Below, piece by piece: positions 2,334 to 9,827 of a DNA stretch of 52,648 nucleotides; positions within the stretch are counted from its first letter, which is position 1; the number at the start of each line of letters is the position of its first letter. The position numbers and the translations under genes were made by a program. The notes beneath the pieces were generated by a model that worked only from the letters and a program-made list of their open reading frames with translations, did not search any database and was not told where the DNA came from. Origin of the DNA: Aquabacterium sp. (GTDB taxonomy: Bacteria > Pseudomonadota > Gammaproteobacteria > Burkholderiales > Burkholderiaceae_C); the NCBI GenBank assembly GCA_004322345.1, contig SCTQ01000333.1, positions 1 to 52,648 of the forward strand, read 5' to 3'.

Positions 2334-3443
2334 TCAGTCCGTATGAGCCGCGCTTGTCCGCTGGGCCTGTTCCCTCGCCTGCTCGATCGCTTGATGCAGC
2401 CGCTCGCGCAGCAACGGCAAGGGCGGGAGGTCCGTGAGGTATTCGCTCACGCGGATGGACTTGGCGTCGAGCTGCAGCAGCTCCACCTGCTCCGCGTCGG
2501 CGGATGCACAGAGGATGAGGCCGATGGGGGCCTCTTCGCCGGGCCCGCGCTCATGCCGGTCCAGCCATCGCAGGTACAGCTCCATCTGGCCCACGTGGGC
2601 GGGCTGGAAGGACTCGAGCTTGAGTTCGACGGCGACCAGGCAGCGCAGGCGGCGGTGGAAGAACAGCAGGTCCAGATGGAAGTCGTCCTTGCCCACGCTC
2701 ATGCGCTTCTGCCGGGCGACGAAGCAGAAGCTGGTGCCCAGCTCCAGCAGCACGCCTTCGATCTCACGCAGGATGGCGGCTTCAAGGTCGCGCTCGCTGT
2801 AGGCGCCTTTCAGACCCAGCAGGTCCAGGAAATAGGGGTCGCGGAAGACGGTGTCGGGGCTCAGCTGCCCTGCCCTGAGCTTGCCTATCTCCGCGGAAAT
2901 GACGCTTTCGGGTTTCCTAGAGAGCACGGTGCGCTGGTACAGCATGCCAGCGATCTTTTGCCTCAGCGTGCGAACGTCCCAGCGCTCGATGCGGCTCATC
3001 TCGGCGTAGAAGTCGCGCGCCATGGGGTCCTTGATGGGCAGCAGCGCGTGGAAGTGGGACCAGCTCAATTGTTGTGACAGCGTCACAACAATTGCCTCGT
3101 CGGGGAAAGACTGGGCGAACTGGATCATGCGAGCCAGTTCCGCGTAGCTGAACCCACGGCCGTACTCAGCCGTCAATTCTCGTGACAGCGTCACGAGAAT
3201 CTGTTTTGCGTAGGCAGCCCTGCCGCTCTGCAGATGGTCCTGCACGAGACGCCGGCCGACTCGCCAGCAAAGTAGCGCCTGAGTCGCGCAGGCGGCCGTC
3301 GCGATCCGCTGGCGGGCCGATTGGACGAGGGTCCGCAGGTCCCCTAGCAATGCCGCTTCGTCTACGCGAGCCGGTTGGGTGCTGGCCTCTCCCGGCTGCG
3401 CTCGCAGCCGAGACTTGCCCTTGATGCGTTGCGCTCGCTCCAT
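2334..3443 (-). CDS. DUF1016 / YhcG-type PDDEXK nuclease domain protein
   Basis: A 369-aa protein of the DUF1016 (YhcG) family. The N-terminal half (about 30-190) has the family's conserved blocks YAKQILVTLSRELTAEYG and TLSQQLSWSHFHALLPI. The C-terminal half is a PDDEXK fold with the nuclease motif DDFHLDLLFFHRRLRCLVAVELK in pieces at about 255-277 (Asp, then Glu-x-Lys). Members are found in restriction and other defence islands and are thought to cut or bind DNA (family knowledge). The gene carries two internal DNA palindromes, listed separately. Confidence 0.88.
   Translation of the reverse strand: MERAQRIKGKSRLRAQPGEASTQPARVDEAALLGDLRTLVQSARQRIATAACATQALLCWRVGRRLVQDHLQSGRAAYAKQILVTLSRELTAEYGRGFSYAELARMIQFAQSFPDEAIVVTLSQQLSWSHFHALLPIKDPMARDFYAEMSRIERWDVRTLRQKIAGMLYQRTVLSRKPESVISAEIGKLRAGQLSPDTVFRDPYFLDLLGLKGAYSERDLEAAILREIEGVLLELGTSFCFVARQKRMSVGKDDFHLDLLFFHRRLRCLVAVELKLESFQPAHVGQMELYLRWLDRHERGPGEEAPIGLILCASADAEQVELLQLDAKSIRVSEYLTDLPPLPLLRERLHQAIEQAREQAQRTSAAHTD
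3066..3094. repeat. Perfect 13-bp inverted repeat inside the DUF1016 gene
   Basis: CAATTGTTGTGAC and GTCACAACAATTG are exact reverse complements separated by AGC. It lies within the coding sequence for IVVTLSQQL. The centre GTGACAGCGTCAC is shared with a second palindrome at 3176-3200. Confidence 0.8.
3176..3200. repeat. Perfect 11-bp inverted repeat inside the DUF1016 gene
   Basis: ATTCTCGTGAC and GTCACGAGAAT are exact reverse complements around AGC, within the codons for ILVTLSREL. It shares its 13-base centre with the palindrome at 3066-3094. Confidence 0.8.
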
Positions 3444-3533: not shown

Positions 3534-4580
3534 TCAGGGAGACAGCTGCCTCACGCCCTCCGTGCTGCCGACAGCCTGCCGCTGCGCCCTCCTCCAAGCC
3601 GCCGGCGGCAACCCCGTCGCCCGCTTGAACGCCCGCGCAAACGCCGCCTCCGATTCGTACCCCACCTCCTGCGCCACCGCCGCCACCGTCGCGTGGCTCT
3701 CGCGCAGCAGGCGTGCGCCGCACTGCATGCGCCAGTTCGCCAGGTACTGCATCGGCGCCATGCCCGTCAGCGCGCTGAAGCGCTCGTGCAGCGCGGAGCG
3801 GGACAGGCCGATCTGGCGGCCCAGTTCTTCCAGTGTCCAGGCCTGGGCGGGATGGCCGTGCATCAGGCCGATGGCGCGGCCCACCTGCCGGTCGCGCAGC
3901 GCGCCCAGCCAGCCTTGTGCTTCCTCCGGCAGCGAATCCAGGTAGCGCCGCGCGCCATCCACGAACACCATCTCGCTCACCCGCTGCAGCAGCGCCTCCG
4001 CGCCGGCGCGGCGCGTGCCGGTCTCGGCCGCGGCGTGCTCCAGCATCGGGGCCACCCAGGCGCCCACGCCCTCGGCGCGCAGGTGCAGCAGCCTGGGCAG
4101 CGCGGCGATCAAGGGGTTGAAGGGCTTGAGGTCGCAGGCGATGAACCCGCACACCAGGACGGTGCTGGCGTCCTCGCGCGGCAGCAGGCCCAGCTCCACC
4201 ATGTCGCCGCGGTAGGTCACGGGGATGGGCGCGGCGGACTCGCGGTGGTCGAAGAGCCACTTGCCGTCCACCTGCGGCTGCAGGCCCGGCGCGCTGGACA
4301 CCACGTGCGCATCGCCGTGCGGCAGCATCACGATGTCGCCCTCCTGCAGGCGCAGCGGCGGCTCGCCGTCCACGGCCACCCAGCCGCCGCCCTTGGTGAA
4401 GATGTGGTACTCGATGACGTGCTCGGCGCCCGGCATGACGGCCGGTGCCAGCTCTTGCGACGCGGGGGCCTGCGCGGCCCACTGGTCGCGGCAGCTGACG
4501 TGGAAGAAGACGGAGCCGCGCAGCTGCACGCTGCGCAGCACGTCCGAAAGGGGGTCCAGCACCTCTTGCACGCTGCTCAT
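3534..4580 (-). CDS. AraC-family regulator with N-terminal cupin (Cupin_6)
   Basis: 348 aa. Residues about 15-190 form a cupin of the AraC_binding/Cupin_6 type (HIFTKGGGWVAVDGE, then GDIVMLPHGDAH). The C-terminal about 100 residues are a double HTH of the AraC/XylS type (WTLEELGRQIGLSRSALHERF, then VAQEVGYESEAAFARAFKR). Start chosen at ATG 4580 because GGGAGGG lies about ten bases upstream and the family begins near there; the frame stays open far upstream only because of GC bias. It is divergent from the TPR gene and sits 20 bp from the 70-base element at 4601, which is the likely site of its own control. Confidence 0.9.
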   Translation of the reverse strand: MSSVQEVLDPLSDVLRSVQLRGSVFFHVSCRDQWAAQAPASQELAPAVMPGAEHVIEYHIFTKGGGWVAVDGEPPLRLQEGDIVMLPHGDAHVVSSAPGLQPQVDGKWLFDHRESAAPIPVTYRGDMVELGLLPREDASTVLVCGFIACDLKPFNPLIAALPRLLHLRAEGVGAWVAPMLEHAAAETGTRRAGAEALLQRVSEMVFVDGARRYLDSLPEEAQGWLGALRDRQVGRAIGLMHGHPAQAWTLEELGRQIGLSRSALHERFSALTGMAPMQYLANWRMQCGARLLRESHATVAAVAQEVGYESEAAFARAFKRATGLPPAAWRRAQRQAVGSTEGVRQLSP

Positions 4581-4600
4581 CGTGCGGCCCTCCCATGCGT

Positions 4601-4670
4601 GCCGGACGCACGAGCATGCCGCGGCGACATGCGGTGAAGCGCGCCCAGGCGCGGGCGGGAACCATGCGCA
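4601..4670. promoter_or_regulatory. 70-base shared element, copy A (araC/TPR intergenic)
   Basis: Identical to 7792-7861 at 50 of 70 positions without gaps. The first 16 bases (GCCGGACGCACGAGCA) and the last 8 (CATGCGCA) are exact matches, and GGTGAAG is shared in the middle. After GGTGAAG both copies can form a short hairpin: GCGC/GCGC here, GTGCC/GGCAC in copy B, with one C-G pair replaced by T-A. It could be an operator for the AraC protein or a structured leader for the TPR gene; sequence alone does not decide. Confidence 0.6.
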
Positions 4671-4859
4671 GCTTGCCGGCCAGCGTGCCGGCGGCCCCCT
4701 GCGTTGACCAAGACATCCACCATGACCTCCGCCATCTCTTCCTCCTCGTCGTCCATCCCGGCGCCGGACCGCGCCCTCAAGCCGCCGCGGATTGTGGATG
4801 GAAGCGCACGCTGCGGCGACCCTCCCGTTCGCCGGCAGCCGCGGATCCAAGGGCGCGGG

Positions 4860-6164
4860 ATGGGCAGCCTGGATGCACGTGGCTGCCCGGTGTCGGGCGC
4901 CAGCCCGGCTGCCGCGCACCACTTCGAGGCCGCGCTGGCCAGCTTCCAGTCCTGGCGCGGCAGCGTGGACGCGCCGCTGCAGCGCGCCCTGCAGGAGGCA
5001 CCCGGCTTCGCGATGGCGCACGTGCTGCGCGCCCACGCGCTGGTGAGCAGCCGGGACCTGCGCCGCGTGCGGCAGGCCCAGTCGCTGCTGGACGATGCGG
5101 CCCACCTCGCGGTCAACCCGCGCGAGCGCCTGCACCTGGCGGCCATCGGCGCGGCTGCTGCCGGCCACTACGACCGCGCGCGGGACGCCTTGGACGCCCT
5201 GCTCGCCGTCTGGCCGCGCGATGCGCTGGCGCTGCAAGTGGCCGGCACCTTCGACTACTACACGGGCGACACGGCACGCATGCTGGCGCGCGTGGAATCG
5301 GTGCTGCCCAGCTGGTCGCCCGAGCTGCCGGGCTACCACGCGCTGCTGGCGCAGCGGGCCTTCGCGCTGGAGGAGACCGGCGACTACGCCCGGGCCGAGG
5401 ACCAGGCGCGCGCCGCGCTGGCACTGGAGCCGCTGGACGTGCGCGCCCATCACGTCATGGCCCACGTCTTCGAGATGACGGACCGGCCGGCCGAGGGCCT
5501 GCGCTGGATGGCCGCGCAGGACGTGCACGATGCACCCGCCGCGGCCGGCAGCTTCTTCACCACCCACTGCCGCTGGCACCTGGCGCTGTTCCACCTGGCG
5601 CTGTCGCAGCCCGATGCGGCGCTGGCGATCCACGACCGCTTCATGCCGGCGCGCCGTGGCGCCGACATCGCCGACCTCATCGACGCGGCCGCGCTGCTGT
5701 GGCGCCTGCAGTTGCAAGGCATAGCCGTGGATACACGCGCCCAGCGCCTGGCCGCCGCCTGGACGCCGCACATCGACGACGCCCTGTGCACCTTCAGCGA
5801 CGTGCACGCGATGCTGGCCTTCGTGGCCGCGCGCGACTGGCGCAGCGCCGAGCGGCTGCTGGCCGTGCTGGCGGCCAGCCAGGCGCGGGCCACGCGCCAC
5901 GGCCGCGCCTCGCGCGAGCTGGGCCTGCCGGCCTGCCGCGCGCTGCTGGCCTTCGGCCGCGGGGATGCCATCCTGGCCACCACGCTGCTGGCCAGCCTGC
6001 CCGCGGTGGCCCACCGCCTGGGCGGCAGCCATGCGCAGCGCGACGTGCTGCACCTGACGCTGCTGCACGCGGTGGAGCGCGTGCGCCGGCCGGCAGCACG
6101 CGCAGGCCACACGCACAACCGCTCCCCAACCACGGCCCCCACCACCGCCCCCACCAAAGGGTGA
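4860..6164 (+). CDS. Tetratricopeptide-repeat protein, TTC38-like
   Basis: About 434 aa of helical repeats. The start of homology (DARGCPVSGASPAAAHHFEAAL) and repeat blocks such as ALEETGDYARAEDQARAALALEPLD at about 175-200 resemble the TPR/TTC38-like family of soluble bacterial proteins. I prefer ATG 4860, which has AAGGG at a good distance and begins two residues before the conserved DARG; ATG 4722 in the same frame would add 46 low-complexity residues. The function of the family is poorly known; a scaffold or a role in secondary metabolism is inference. It is divergent from araC and followed by the FAD oxidoreductase. Confidence 0.78.
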   Translation: MGSLDARGCPVSGASPAAAHHFEAALASFQSWRGSVDAPLQRALQEAPGFAMAHVLRAHALVSSRDLRRVRQAQSLLDDAAHLAVNPRERLHLAAIGAAAAGHYDRARDALDALLAVWPRDALALQVAGTFDYYTGDTARMLARVESVLPSWSPELPGYHALLAQRAFALEETGDYARAEDQARAALALEPLDVRAHHVMAHVFEMTDRPAEGLRWMAAQDVHDAPAAAGSFFTTHCRWHLALFHLALSQPDAALAIHDRFMPARRGADIADLIDAAALLWRLQLQGIAVDTRAQRLAAAWTPHIDDALCTFSDVHAMLAFVAARDWRSAERLLAVLAASQARATRHGRASRELGLPACRALLAFGRGDAILATTLLASLPAVAHRLGGSHAQRDVLHLTLLHAVERVRRPAARAGHTHNRSPTTAPTTAPTKG

Positions 6165-6176
6165 GTTGAGGCGCCC

Positions 6177-6205
6177 GGCGGACGCCGGAGCAAACGCGCA
6201 CGACG
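6177..6205 (+). promoter_or_regulatory. Possible partial third copy of the shared element (5' part)
   Basis: GGCGGACGCCGGAGCAAACG and the following nine bases match the first 29 bases of the copy at 7792 at 23 positions. The remainder of the element is not recognisable. It lies about 70 bp before the oxidoreductase start. In DNA this GC-rich the match is suggestive only. Confidence 0.3.
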
Positions 6206-6227
6206 CCTGAGCAGGCCGCTGCGGGGC

Positions 6228-6270
6228 CCGTCTTTCCAGAATGCCGCCCACACATTCTTTGGAAAGACGG
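6228..6270. promoter_or_regulatory. Inverted repeat covering the oxidoreductase ribosome site
   Basis: CCGTCTTTCC at 6228-6237 is the exact reverse complement of GGAAAGACGG at 6261-6270, with AGAATG/CATTCT extending the inner arms imperfectly. GGAAAG, the probable ribosome site for ATG 6276, is inside the downstream arm. It could act as an operator or as a hairpin that hides the ribosome site. Confidence 0.6.
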
Positions 6271-6275
6271 ACCGC

Positions 6276-7745
6276 ATGGATCACCTCGAAACGGACTACC
6301 TCGTGATCGGCGCCGGCGCCATGGGCATGGGCTTCGCCGATGCCCTGCTGGCGCTGGACCGCAGCGCGCACATCACCCTGGTGGACCGGCACCACCGCCC
6401 CGGCGGGCACTGGAACGACGCCTACTCCTTCGTGCGGCTGCACCAGCCCTCGGTGTTCTATGGCCTCAACTCGCGGCCCTTCGGCAGCGAGGTGCCAGAC
6501 ACCCAGGGCCCCAACCGCGGCCTGGCGGAGATGGGCACCGGGCAGGCCGTGCTCGATCACTTCGAGCAGGCCATGCGCCAGACGCTGCTGCCCTCGGGGC
6601 GCGTGCGCTTCCTGTCGATGACGGAGCACGTGGGCGCCGATGCACAGGGCCGGCAGGTCGTGCACTCGCTGCTCGACGGCCGGGCCACGGCCCTCACCGT
6701 GCGGCGCAAGCTGGTGCACGCCACGCTCACGGGCACCCGGGTGCCCTCCACCCATGCGCCGCGTTATGCGGTGGCGCCGGGCGTGCGCTGCGTGCCGCCC
6801 AATGCGCTGCCGGGCATCGCCGGAGCCCACCCGCGCTACACCGTGGTGGGCGCGGGCAAGACCGCCATGGACGCCTGCCAATGGCTGCTGCACAACGGCA
6901 CCGACCCCGCGCGCATCCGCTGGGTGATTTCCAACGACGCGTGGTTCATCGACCGGGCCAACGTGCAGCCGGGCGTTGAAAACCTGCCGCGCTTCTTCGA
7001 GTCGCTGGCGCTGCAGTACGAATGCGTGGCGCGGTCCACGTCGCTGGCCGATCTGTTCGACCGGCTGGAAGAGACGGGCCAACTGCTGCGCCTGGACGCG
7101 GGCGTGCGCCCGACGCGCTACCGCTGCGCCACGGTGTCGCAGGCCGAACTGGCCGAGCTGCGGCGCATCGCCCACGTGCTGCGCCTGGGCCGCGTGCGCT
7201 CGATCGCCCCCACCGGCATGACGCTGGAGCGCGGCACGGCCGAGGTGCTGCCCGGCGAGCTGTTCATCGATTGCAGCGCGGAGGGCCTGGCCTCGCAGCC
7301 CGGCGTGCCGGTGTTCGAGGGCGACCATGCCATCCACCTGCAGATGGTGCGCCAGTGCGCGCCGTCCTTCAGCGCCGCCTTCACTGCGGCGGTGGAGTGC
7401 CTGGTGGACGGCGACGCCGGCCTGCGCAACGGCCTGTGCGCACCGGTGCAGCTGCCGCAGGAGGACTTCCACTGGGTGACCATGCAGGCGACCACACTGG
7501 CCAACCGGCAGAAGTGGTCGCGCCACGAGCGGCTCATGCAGTGGCTGGCCGAATCGCGGCTGGATTACGGCACGCGCATGCGCCCGCTGGTGCCGGCCGG
7601 GCTGCTGGAACGCTACGTGCGCGCGATCAAGGCCGCGTCGCCTGCTTGGGCTCCGCTGTTGGCCGAGTGCGCGCAGCGCCAGGCCGCGGGCAGCAAGGCC
7701 GCGGTGCGCGCGCATGCGCGTGAGGAGGTGGCCGCCGCCTCCTGA
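6276..7745 (+). CDS. FAD/NAD(P)-binding oxidoreductase, monooxygenase-like
   Basis: 489 aa. Residues 8-17 (LVIGAGAMGMG) form an N-terminal dinucleotide-binding fold, followed by HxRPGGHWND, the pattern seen in flavin monooxygenase-like enzymes. A second nucleotide site appears at about 188-200 (YTVVGAGKTAMDACQWLL), as expected for an enzyme binding both FAD and NADPH. The substrate is unknown. Its place between the TPR and methyltransferase genes, all on the plus strand, suggests a common modification pathway. Start ATG 6276 follows GGAAAGACGG. Confidence 0.82.
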   Translation: MDHLETDYLVIGAGAMGMGFADALLALDRSAHITLVDRHHRPGGHWNDAYSFVRLHQPSVFYGLNSRPFGSEVPDTQGPNRGLAEMGTGQAVLDHFEQAMRQTLLPSGRVRFLSMTEHVGADAQGRQVVHSLLDGRATALTVRRKLVHATLTGTRVPSTHAPRYAVAPGVRCVPPNALPGIAGAHPRYTVVGAGKTAMDACQWLLHNGTDPARIRWVISNDAWFIDRANVQPGVENLPRFFESLALQYECVARSTSLADLFDRLEETGQLLRLDAGVRPTRYRCATVSQAELAELRRIAHVLRLGRVRSIAPTGMTLERGTAEVLPGELFIDCSAEGLASQPGVPVFEGDHAIHLQMVRQCAPSFSAAFTAAVECLVDGDAGLRNGLCAPVQLPQEDFHWVTMQATTLANRQKWSRHERLMQWLAESRLDYGTRMRPLVPAGLLERYVRAIKAASPAWAPLLAECAQRQAAGSKAAVRAHAREEVAAAS

Positions 7746-7791
7746 GCACGCACCACCCCACGCACACCCTGAAGGGGTAAGGCCCCGCCCC

Positions 7792-7861
7792 GCCGGACGC
7801 ACGAGCAAATGCGCGGGACGTGGGGTGAAGTGCCCGAGGGCACACGCCGGAATCATGCGCA
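7792..7861. promoter_or_regulatory. 70-base shared element, copy B (methyltransferase leader)
   Basis: Second full copy of the element at 4601-4670. Its internal hairpin GTGCC-CGAG-GGCAC follows GGTGAA directly. It ends 109 bp before the methyltransferase ATG. No match to a riboswitch consensus I know. Confidence 0.6.
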
Positions 7862-7901
7862 CACCGACGGACGAACCGCCGGCAGCCAAGCGAACGACCC
7901 G

Positions 7902-7951
7902 ACTCAACTCGATTCGCTCGACTCATTCGACTCGTTCGACTCATTCGATTC
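7902..7951 (+). repeat. Short tandem repeat, about 9-bp unit GACTCATTC
   Basis: Units of nine bases (GACTCATTC, GACTCGTTC, GACTCATTC, with degenerate GATTCGCTC before and GATTC after) run up to about 20 bp before the methyltransferase start. The spacing would put them in the leader or the promoter region. Confidence 0.65.
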
Positions 7952-7970
7952 CCATCGACAAGGACCCAAG

Positions 7971-8843
7971 ATGACCTCCCTCACCGATACGCGCTCCGCT
8001 TTCAACGCTTCTTCCCCCGTGCCCGCAGTGCCCGCAACGGCACCGGACTACACCGCCATCAAGCAACGCCAGCAGGCCACCTGGGCCAGCGGCGACTTCG
8101 CCGTCGTCGGCACGACGCTGCAGATCGTCGGCGAGACGCTGGCCGAAGCGGCCGACGTGCGCGCCGGCGAGCGCGTGCTGGACGTGGCCGCCGGCAACGG
8201 CAACGCCACGCTGGCCGCGGCCCGCCGTTTCGCCGACGTCACCTCCACCGACTACGTGCCTCACCTGCTGGACAAGGGCCGGCGCCGCGCCGAGGCCGAG
8301 GGCCTGATCGTGCACTTCCAGGAAGCCGATGCCGAGGCCCTGCCCTTCGAGAACGCCAGCTTCGACGCCGTGCTGTCCACCTACGGCGTGATGTTCGCGC
8401 CCGACCACGCCACCGCCGCGCGCGAGATGCTGCGCGTGGTGCGTCCGGGCGGCCGCATCGCGATGGCCAACTGGACGCCGGACGGGCTCATCGGCCGGCT
8501 GTTCAAGGTCGTCGGCGCCCACGTGCCGCCGCCGGCCGGCGTGAAGTCGCCCGCGCTGTGGGGCACGGAATCGCACCTGGTGGCGCTGTTCGGCCCGCAG
8601 GCGCAGGACATCCAGGTGGAGCGCAAGCACTTCAACTTCCGCTACCGCTCGGCCGCGCACTTCGTGCAGGTCTTCCGCGACCTCTACGGCCCGACCCACA
8701 AGGCCTTCGCCGCGCTGGACGCCGCCGGCCAGGCGAAGCTGGAGCGCGACATCCTGGCGCTGCTCGACGAGTTCGACATCGGCGGGGGCCGCGGGCTGGT
8801 GGCGCCCAGCGAGTACGCGCAGATCGTGGTCACCGTGCGCTGA
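7971..8843 (+). CDS. Class I SAM-dependent methyltransferase
   Basis: 290 aa. Motif I reads VLDVAAGNGNATLAAA at about 70-85, followed by DYVPHLL (acidic residue contacting the ribose) and DAEALPFENASFDAVLSTYG, typical of UbiE/COQ5-like small-molecule methyltransferases. C-terminal residues show no extra domain. ATG 7971 has AAGGACC upstream. The stop is 8 bp from the DUF3455 gene, so they are co-transcribed. The substrate is unknown. Confidence 0.88.
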   Translation: MTSLTDTRSAFNASSPVPAVPATAPDYTAIKQRQQATWASGDFAVVGTTLQIVGETLAEAADVRAGERVLDVAAGNGNATLAAARRFADVTSTDYVPHLLDKGRRRAEAEGLIVHFQEADAEALPFENASFDAVLSTYGVMFAPDHATAAREMLRVVRPGGRIAMANWTPDGLIGRLFKVVGAHVPPPAGVKSPALWGTESHLVALFGPQAQDIQVERKHFNFRYRSAAHFVQVFRDLYGPTHKAFAALDAAGQAKLERDILALLDEFDIGGGRGLVAPSEYAQIVVTVR

Positions 8844-8851
8844 GGGACGAG

Positions 8852-9418
8852 ATGAACGAGAGCTACTCCAACATCTCCCTGCTCTTCGCCACCGTGCTGG
8901 GCGGCGTGCTGGCCGGCTGCGCGACACCCAGGATGGAGCCGCCGCCCGGCGGCGCGCCGCTGATCACGCTGGCGGCCCACGGCGTGCAGACCTACGAGTG
9001 CCGCGCGGCGGCCGGCGCCACGCCGGCCTGGGCCTTCGTCGGGCCCGAGGCCGATCTCTTCGACCCCGGTGGCCTGCGCATCGGCCGCCACGGCGCCGGC
9101 CCCTCCTGGCAGCACGAGGACGGCAGCGGCTTCACCGGCACCGTGCGCTCGCGCATGGAGTCGCCACGGCCGGGCGCCATCCCGTGGCTGCTGCTGGACG
9201 CGCGCGGCAACGGACGCCCCGGCTCCTTCGCCAACGTCAGCGCCGTGCAGCGGATCAACACCGTGGGCGGCGTGGCCCCGCAAGGCGGCTGCAGCGCGCG
9301 CACGCTGGGCTCGAAGGTGCACATGGCCTATCGCGCGGACTACGTGCTGTACGTGCCCGCGCCCGTGGGCAGCGCGCCGGCCCGCGTGGACTTGGCCGGC
9401 GGCGGGAGCTTCCAGTGA
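8852..9418 (+). CDS. DUF3455 lipoprotein
   Basis: 188 aa. A signal peptide with lipobox LAGC at about residues 20-23 predicts an acylated, envelope-anchored protein. The mature part shows DUF3455 features: YECRAAAGATPAWAFVGPEA, then GPSWQHEDGS and INTVGGVAPQGGC. The function of the family is not established. AGGGACGAG serves as ribosome site after the methyltransferase stop. The stop overlaps the GTG of the LysE remnant. Confidence 0.85.
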   Translation: MNESYSNISLLFATVLGGVLAGCATPRMEPPPGGAPLITLAAHGVQTYECRAAAGATPAWAFVGPEADLFDPGGLRIGRHGAGPSWQHEDGSGFTGTVRSRMESPRPGAIPWLLLDARGNGRPGSFANVSAVQRINTVGGVAPQGGCSARTLGSKVHMAYRADYVLYVPAPVGSAPARVDLAGGGSFQ

Positions 9419-9531
9419 GCCTGGCCGACCACGCGCCGCTGGTGGCCTACTCGCTGGCGCTGACGCTGACGCCCGGGCCCTCGGCGCTGCTGATCGCGGC
9501 GTCGGGGGCGCGCTTCGGGCTGGGGCGCTCA
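9415..9531 (+). pseudogene. LysE-family exporter, truncated after 39 codons
   Basis: GTG at 9415 overlaps the lipoprotein stop (GTGA). Codons 1-39 encode the start of a LysE/RhtB exporter: hydrophobic helix 1, then LTPGPSALLIAASGARFGLGRS, the family signature. At about 9531 homology stops and the frame runs on to 9618 through unrelated sequence. The remaining 160 or so residues are missing. The break coincides with the 3' end of a gene on the other strand, so a deletion has joined two convergent genes. Confidence 0.7.
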
Positions 9532-9827
9532 TCCAACCAGGCAAGGTTGAACCGGGCATCGGCGGCGACCATGGGCGTGACGGCTGTGTGGGGCTGGTGC
9601 GCCGCGGCCCGGGCGTGAGCGGCTGAGCGCGGGTGGCGCACGCGAGGGCTGGCGTCCGCCTGCCCGCCCAGCGTGCCGGCGAGGAACAGCAGGCTGAACA
9701 TCACGAGCAGCGCGCCCGCGATCACCTGGGTCACGATCAGGAAGGACTCGATCTCGCCGAGGTGACGGCCTTCGCGCAGCACCCACCAGCCGCTGCGGGC
9801 GCCGCCTCTGAAGGATGCTGGTGCCAT
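9447..9827 (-). CDS. Small membrane protein, C-terminus fused across a deletion junction
   Basis: ATG at 9827 opens a 126-aa frame with one strong membrane helix at about 28-52 (SFLIVTQVIAGALLVMFSLL). Residues to about 99 (ARFNLAWLDE) look like the native protein. The last 28 residues are antisense to the LysE remnant, so the original stop has been lost or moved. No family recognised. It follows the DUF4345 gene on the same strand after 38 bp. Confidence 0.45.
   Translation of the reverse strand: MAPASFRGGARSGWWVLREGRHLGEIESFLIVTQVIAGALLVMFSLLFLAGTLGGQADASPRVRHPRSAAHARAAAHQPHTAVTPMVAADARFNLAWLDERPSPKRAPDAAISSAEGPGVSVSASE

Follow-up and report, generated by a model that had tools for sequence, protein, structure and literature searches.

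AraC-type activator promoters such as araI1-I2 of araBAD carry their half-sites as tandem direct repeats. Here we describe a 70-base repeated element with this geometry in a 52,648-nt stretch of Aquabacterium sp. DNA (contig SCTQ01000333.1; "the window" denotes this whole stretch). The element very probably represents the operator and core promoter of an AraC-family regulator with a Cupin_6 domain, encoded at 3534-4580, and the sequence comparisons given below predict that it joins three transcription units in one regulon.

A described counterpart is the AraC/XylS-type activator CphR of Rhodococcus, which activates transcription from the cphA2A1 promoter and occupies a pair of direct repeats there, at −35 to −69 (PMC6205950). 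The window likewise has two direct repeats reaching to about −35, a regulator gene adjoining its target, and a DNA-binding domain of the same family. It differs from the CphR system in the half-site (GCGGACGnnCGATCAAG versus TGCA-N6-GGNTA), in the target genes, and in having three copies of the site within a single cluster. The best NCBIfam match of the window regulator is the reactive-chlorine AraC regulator RclR (NF040475, residues 135-334); however, the score of 91.2 bits is far below the cut-off of 400, and therefore the regulator is not RclR. The genes adjacent to it also differ from the rclABC set, as a review presents it (PMC7464077). A first-pass annotation of this DNA, made from the sequence alone, knew of no system of such composition, and our searches of the open-licence literature are consistent with that statement, having returned no description of the operator or of the gene set.

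Results

Three tandem sites precede three transcription units

Copy A (4601-4670) and copy B (7792-7861) of the element are identical at 50 of 70 positions without gaps, and their ends match exactly over 16 and 8 bases, as the first-pass annotation had reported. The next-best 70-mer to copy A in the window, on either strand, agreed at 38 of 70 positions, and the best match in 30 dinucleotide-preserving shuffles (+ strand) agreed at 40. A weaker 29-base match noted earlier at 6177-6205 was found again, and it extends to a third full tandem, C (6178-6215). A coding origin of the repeat was rejected because the mismatches between A and B are spread over the three codon phases (6, 8 and 6) and no coding signal was detected. 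When copy B with 50-base flanks was compared by blastn with 61 genomes (its own and 60 relatives), no match was found beyond its own genome; homology of the element in relatives emerged only through protein searches. A third own-genome blastn match, C374, looked like coding sequence by eye and was taken as a chance match.

The training set for a half-site matrix comprised 27 upstream regions of araC homologues and excluded the window; 15 of these came from loci encoding TPR proteins, and the other 12 were obtained when 300 genomes of the order were searched for araC. The resulting consensus is gCGGACGctCGATCAAG. When both strands of the window were ranked for two direct half-sites in a 21-bp register, B (7793, 27.5 bits), A (4602, 22.8 bits) and C (6178, 20.3 bits) stood at the top, and the next tandem scored 10.7 bits. 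Other spacings (18-20 and 22-24; + strand) reached at most 7.3 bits, and in 60 shuffled windows the best tandem score had a mean of 6.6 and a maximum of 18.8 bits. This ranking by a matrix independent of the window supports, as a prediction, the earlier proposal that the copies are operators of the adjacent AraC/cupin regulator. Each tandem is followed by a transcription unit in the same orientation: A by the TPR gene, C by the oxidoreductase gene, and B by the methyltransferase-DUF3455 pair (Table 1).

Table 1. Genes, half-sites and −10-like hexamers of the locus (positions in the window).
Feature	Position	Strand	Evidence or remark
AraC-family regulator, N-terminal Cupin_6	3534..4580	-	Pfam Cupin_6 1.9e-44, HTH_18 1.2e-21, HTH_AraC 3.2e-16
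Operator A, distal half-site	4602..4618	+	17.1 bits, rank 2 among window positions, both strands
Operator A, proximal half-site	4623..4639	+	5.7 bits alone, rank 43
−10-like hexamer AACCAT (operator A)	4660..4665	+	20 nt past proximal half-site, columns 21-26
TPR protein, first gene past operator A	4704..6164	+	weak TPR matches (Pfam); 16-sequence alignment
Operator C, distal half-site	6178..6194	+	14.7 bits, rank 4
Operator C, proximal half-site	6199..6215	+	5.6 bits alone, rank 47
NAD(P)/FAD-binding oxidoreductase, first gene past operator C	6276..7745	+	NAD_binding_8 7.6e-06
Operator B, distal half-site	7793..7809	+	19.7 bits, rank 1
Operator B, proximal half-site	7814..7830	+	7.8 bits alone, rank 18
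−10-like hexamer AATCAT (operator B)	7851..7856	+	20 nt past proximal half-site, columns 21-26
S-adenosylmethionine (SAM)-dependent methyltransferase	7971..8843	+	Methyltransf_11 3.4e-23; 60-81% identical homologues adjoin araC elsewhere
DUF3455 protein	8852..9418	+	DUF3455 3.6e-29; lipobox-like N terminus (read by eye)
Short open reading frame, 67 aa, LysE-like start (by eye)	9415..9618	+	overlaps end of DUF3455 gene

The tandem accompanies relatives of the regulator

A search with the TPR protein yielded 25 loci in named genomes. At 14 of them an AraC protein 53-79% identical to that of the window is encoded nearby on the opposite strand; the AraC of L009 is more distant (41%), and that of L030 is partial. 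Pieces of the element are present in the araC-side gap of some TPR loci. The tandem was detected at 11 of the 14 loci with a near araC gene, and among the other 11, several of which are cut by contig ends, at L017 only. In the 27 training regions, 63 half-sites are directed away from araC and 1 towards it, and 22 of 38 neighbouring half-site pairs are spaced exactly 21 bp. At least one half-site is present in 25 of the 27 regions, L035 and L043 having none. We also carried out a matrix-free test, in which a self-match of at least 12 of 17 positions occurred at lag 21 in 13 of 24 regions, whereas none of 21 other lags gave it in more than 1 of the 24 (this set omits L035 and L043, and L009 was moved to the distant set). 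Among 18 regions beside more distant regulators, such a self-match occurred in 3 at lag 21 and in at most 1 at other lags. The expectation that matches to the element would follow AraC/cupin genes thus largely holds, for relatives of the regulator. The sites, their register and strand, their conservation and their link to the regulator's relatives are direct results of these computations.

For most close relatives, the site is located in the gap that separates araC from a divergent gene or gene pair, which is a methyltransferase gene, a BBE oxidase with TPR, or a GFA-like gene. The divergent unit was recorded for 27 araC genes of the near clade, all from outside the window (L043 was not counted). 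It is a BBE oxidase with TPR in 11 (L006, L007, L008, L011, L012, L015, L018, L020, L023, L025 and L028) and a methyltransferase in 12 (L021, L022, L024, L032, L033, L034, L036, L037, L039, L040, L078 and L079), with a TPR gene after the methyltransferase in L021, L022 and L024. A GFA-like gene takes this place in 2 (L038, a weak NCBIfam match, and L041), and the divergent unit of L035 and L042 is none of the three. Both kinds of locus found here, AraC-methyltransferase and AraC-BBE oxidase-TPR (the latter in Variovorax and other Burkholderiales), resemble the window in having a related regulator, the same 21-bp tandem and a homologous TPR or methyltransferase target. In contrast to them, the window has the TPR gene divergent from araC, the methyltransferase gene downstream with its own operator, and a different oxidoreductase gene in between.

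Homologues of that oxidoreductase were found in 9 of 299 other genomes, and in none of the 9 did the retrieved flanks, each about 1.5 kb, contain the tandem or a partner gene. We therefore rejected the oxidoreductase as a general member of the regulon; from these comparisons its membership looks local to the window. The earlier claim of a single regulon stands, as a prediction, for the three units of the window, but was too broad with respect to the oxidoreductase.

Specificity of the tandem and a candidate fourth site

In the 4.9-Mb assembly to which the window belongs, a tandem pattern drawn from the three sites gave zero-mismatch matches at A, B and C and nowhere else; when 2-3 mismatches were allowed, the matches were at background (7 versus 7 for the reversed control). 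The strict tandem pattern, with at most 2 mismatches, gave 12 matches in 9 of 15 araC-bearing genomes, and the reversed control gave 0. Three of the 12 are those of the window, 8 lie beside araC, and 1 precedes a BBE oxidase-TPR pair. This last match is in G066, where it stands before the BBE oxidase gene and the TPR gene that follows (product 43% identical to that of the window), and on another contig of this genome the AraC-linked methyltransferase gene is also preceded by a site. The occurrence of sites at both loci is the best evidence that the methyltransferase and the TPR protein share one regulon. The strict pattern had no match in 41 other genomes of the genus (reversed control, 1), so that the own genome alone matched among 42; however, two genus members, G338 and G015, encode an AraC protein 79-80% identical to ours beside a methyltransferase, with tandems of 20.8 and 19.0 bits by the matrix that the pattern missed.

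A further site was detected in the own genome, on another contig, C256 (L090, 9950-9985). It scores 18.8 bits, equal to the best of the 60 shuffled windows, and has a −10-like GATCAT in register. Because this score is at the whole-genome background, we regard the site as a candidate only for a fourth target of the regulon. The gene behind it matches the Pfam SCO4226-like family (6.7e-22), a sequence likeness to the nickel-binding protein SCO4226 (PMC4186839); against the NCBIfam model it reaches 28 bits, compared with a cut-off of 125. An extra half-site-like stretch, outside the 21-bp register, was seen by eye 18 bp upstream of the C256 site.

Promoter geometry and a model for activation

A and B each consist of two direct half-sites in the 21-bp register followed, 20 nt downstream, by a −10-like hexamer. 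With the proximal half-site as anchor, 27 of 34 promoter regions could be aligned, the three window sites included; in some of these 27 rows the rule had picked the distal pair, which dilutes the signal. Conservation downstream of the proximal half-site peaks at columns 22, 25 and 26, inside the hexamer columns 21-26. A 17-bp spacer would place the −35 position so that it overlaps the proximal half-site at its end. A −10 at fixed distance with a proximal half-site by −35, as in class II promoters, was thus found for A, for B and for the 27-region alignment. An operator joined to a core promoter would account for the two best-kept ends of the repeat, which are the first half-site and the −10 region.

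We propose that a dimer of the regulator would contact one face of the helix at the two direct half-sites, which are spaced by 21 bp. With the proximal half-site abutting or overlapping −35 and the −10-like hexamer 20 nt further on, RNA polymerase would be recruited when the signal is present, as in class II activation; by analogy, the mechanism is the classic AraC-type class II arrangement. Promoters A (TPR), C (oxidoreductase) and B (methyltransferase-DUF3455) would unite the units as one regulon, and the three gene groups are probably switched on together. Operator A, which is separated by 21 bp from the araC start, may also mediate autoregulation of araC. Binding, activation and autoregulation are what we infer from this arrangement, and the prediction of a regulon is well supported by the comparative data.

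The regulator, its clade and a paralogue

The araC product combines Cupin_6 with a C-terminal double helix-turn-helix (HTH), all above the Pfam gathering cut-offs. All 27 near homologues keep Cys144, as do 20 of the 21 others. With regard to the RclR redox pair Cys-21/Cys-89, Cys144 is near the Cys-89 region of the model by aligned ranges only, and Cys30 is present in 10 of 27 near homologues. Residue 265 in HTH1 is His in 24 of 27 near-clade homologues and Ala in 17 of 21 others, and HTH2 is much alike in the two groups.

Three more distant AraC relatives, L050, L058 and L060, have a tandem of their own, roughly GGGGTnTCGGnCAAG, in the same 21-bp register; a GFA-like gene is also near L058 and L060. 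Such tandems have the CAAG half in common with the window operator but differ in the GGACG half. If HTH1 is oriented on the half-site as in MarA, these data fit a reading of the first half of the site by HTH1.

We labelled the regulator tree by presence of the tandem. The first hand labels (22 of 48 rows) required 7 changes, as compared with 16.1 in shuffles, and 0 of 500 shuffles were as low. The fairer figure, with L045, L051, L052 and L080 added (26 rows), is 10 changes, and 1 of 500 shuffles was as low. L047, which has a tandem about 620 bp upstream of its araC, was left out of the labels. On this tree the tandem is clustered, yet it does not form one clade. The paralogue among the added rows that belongs to the own genome (contig C202, L080) is an AraC protein of 38-44% identity, with a half-site of 18.0 bits near its own start, near 8620 of that contig.

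Evaluation of the operator model and its alternatives

A number of observations weigh against the operator model. The proximal half-sites of A and C are weak singly (5.7 and 5.6 bits; ranks 43 and 47), and a loose half-site pattern is not enriched across the window (107 matches versus 125 expected); the signal therefore resides in the tandem. C lacks a hexamer in the exact register, its CAGAAT being displaced by 1 nt, and 7 of the 34 promoter regions yielded no tandem under the rule. Three TPR loci (L012, L021 and L022) among the 14 that have a near araC gene are without the tandem, as are 6 of the 15 araC-bearing genomes with respect to the strict pattern. Tandems also stand beside more distant AraC paralogues (L045, L051, L052 and L080), so the site is not fully clade-specific, and the C202 paralogue might possibly share the sites, which would amount to cross-talk.

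The position of the element, upstream of coding regions and on the same strand, would also suit a structured RNA, such as a riboswitch or leader before the three units. However, no Rfam match was obtained over the window at gathering thresholds, a permissive Rfam scan of 4400-8050 gave two matches with E values of 1.7 and 5.4, and five strands folded no better than shuffles (z −0.14 to 1.91). Moreover, the half-sites lie upstream of the predicted −10 and hence would not be transcribed from it, and we consider a structured RNA extremely improbable. The same can be said of a dispersed genomic repeat or mobile-element remnant that fell into these gaps by chance. Two copies 3.2 kb apart that are similar across 70 bases might be so explained, and a dispersed repeat unlinked to the gene set had been named beforehand as refuting the proposal; however, the zero-mismatch tandem is confined to three places in 4.9 Mb, 41 other genus genomes contain no match, and homologous sites occupy the equivalent araC-side position in other families. 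No such unlinked repeat was seen in the own genome, in the araC-bearing genomes, or in the genus.

The half-site by the start of the C202 paralogue, and the related tandems of some distant regulators (the 3 of 18 regions at lag 21), raise the question of whether a different regulator, for example C202, binds the sites, with the neighbouring AraC incidental or sharing them. Most near-clade loci examined carry the sites in the regulator's own divergent promoter, and residue 265 in HTH1 separates near from other homologues as described above, arguing that this alternative, which is not fully exclusive of the operator model, is unlikely. The regulator could also bind all three sites as a repressor, so that the units are turned off together: operators can act with either sign, and only a short distance separates A from the araC start. 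AraC-type activation, on the other hand, is typified by a proximal half-site that abuts −35, with a parallel in the activator CphR (PMC6205950), and repression likewise appears unlikely, if a shade less so. The reading that we prefer remains an operator with core promoter from which the AraC/Cupin_6 regulator would activate.

Other features of the locus

For the TPR gene, listed above as 4704..6164, the ATG at 4722 is the likelier start. The DUF3455 gene begins 8 nt past the methyltransferase stop. The first-pass gene calls were sustained for AraC/cupin, TPR, oxidoreductase, methyltransferase and DUF3455; the call that failed was LysE. The 67-aa reading frame had no Pfam match even at E ≤ 10, an intact LysE domain was not found, and the frame is probably the remnant of a decayed gene. 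The export step proposed for the pathway is accordingly not supported. A tandem array of the 9-bp unit TCGACTCAT occupies 7900-7948 (3.4 copies at 7918-7948) and separates operator B from the methyltransferase start. Outside the locus, two near-identical palindromes with the core GTGACAGCGTCAC lie at 3065-3092 and 3173-3200, spaced 108 bp, within a DUF1016/YhcG nuclease gene (2334-3443, − strand).

Discussion

The TPR family, which may be linked to TTC38/StaR, has many residues that are invariant among 16 homologues, including H244, H248, H282, H286, D318, D321, H350, D353, H362 and H431. Invariant His and Asp residues are unusual for a scaffold, and the alignment suggests that the TPR protein is an enzyme or has a metal site. 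Compared with a model of the FAD oxygenase of bagremycin/ferroverdin synthesis (cut-off 850), the BBE oxidase of L006 reaches 264 bits, a hint of phenolic substrates. As a tentative guess, the pathway could be inducible and serve to oxidize and methylate a small compound, perhaps a phenolic or electrophilic one.

A broader and still more speculative reading is that the locus belongs to an undescribed stress or xenobiotic response of Burkholderiales. An AraC/Cupin_6 sensor would control interchangeable modules (methyltransferase, BBE oxidase with TPR, GFA-like enzyme, and perhaps an SCO4226-like metal protein) through a portable promoter cassette; the TPR protein would be a His/Asp metal-centre enzyme, and the oxidoreductase would have been captured. 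If this were true, the cassette would have reached an oxidoreductase family whose members in the 9 other genomes examined are without it, an instance of a regulon capturing a new gene.

The results provide a model, covering operator and promoter, for a regulator group of which we found no target described, and they illustrate clearly how a promoter cassette joins genes on separate contigs of a related genome. They would also place the uncharacterised TPR protein, with its invariant histidines, the DUF3455 protein and possibly an SCO4226-like protein in one probable pathway.

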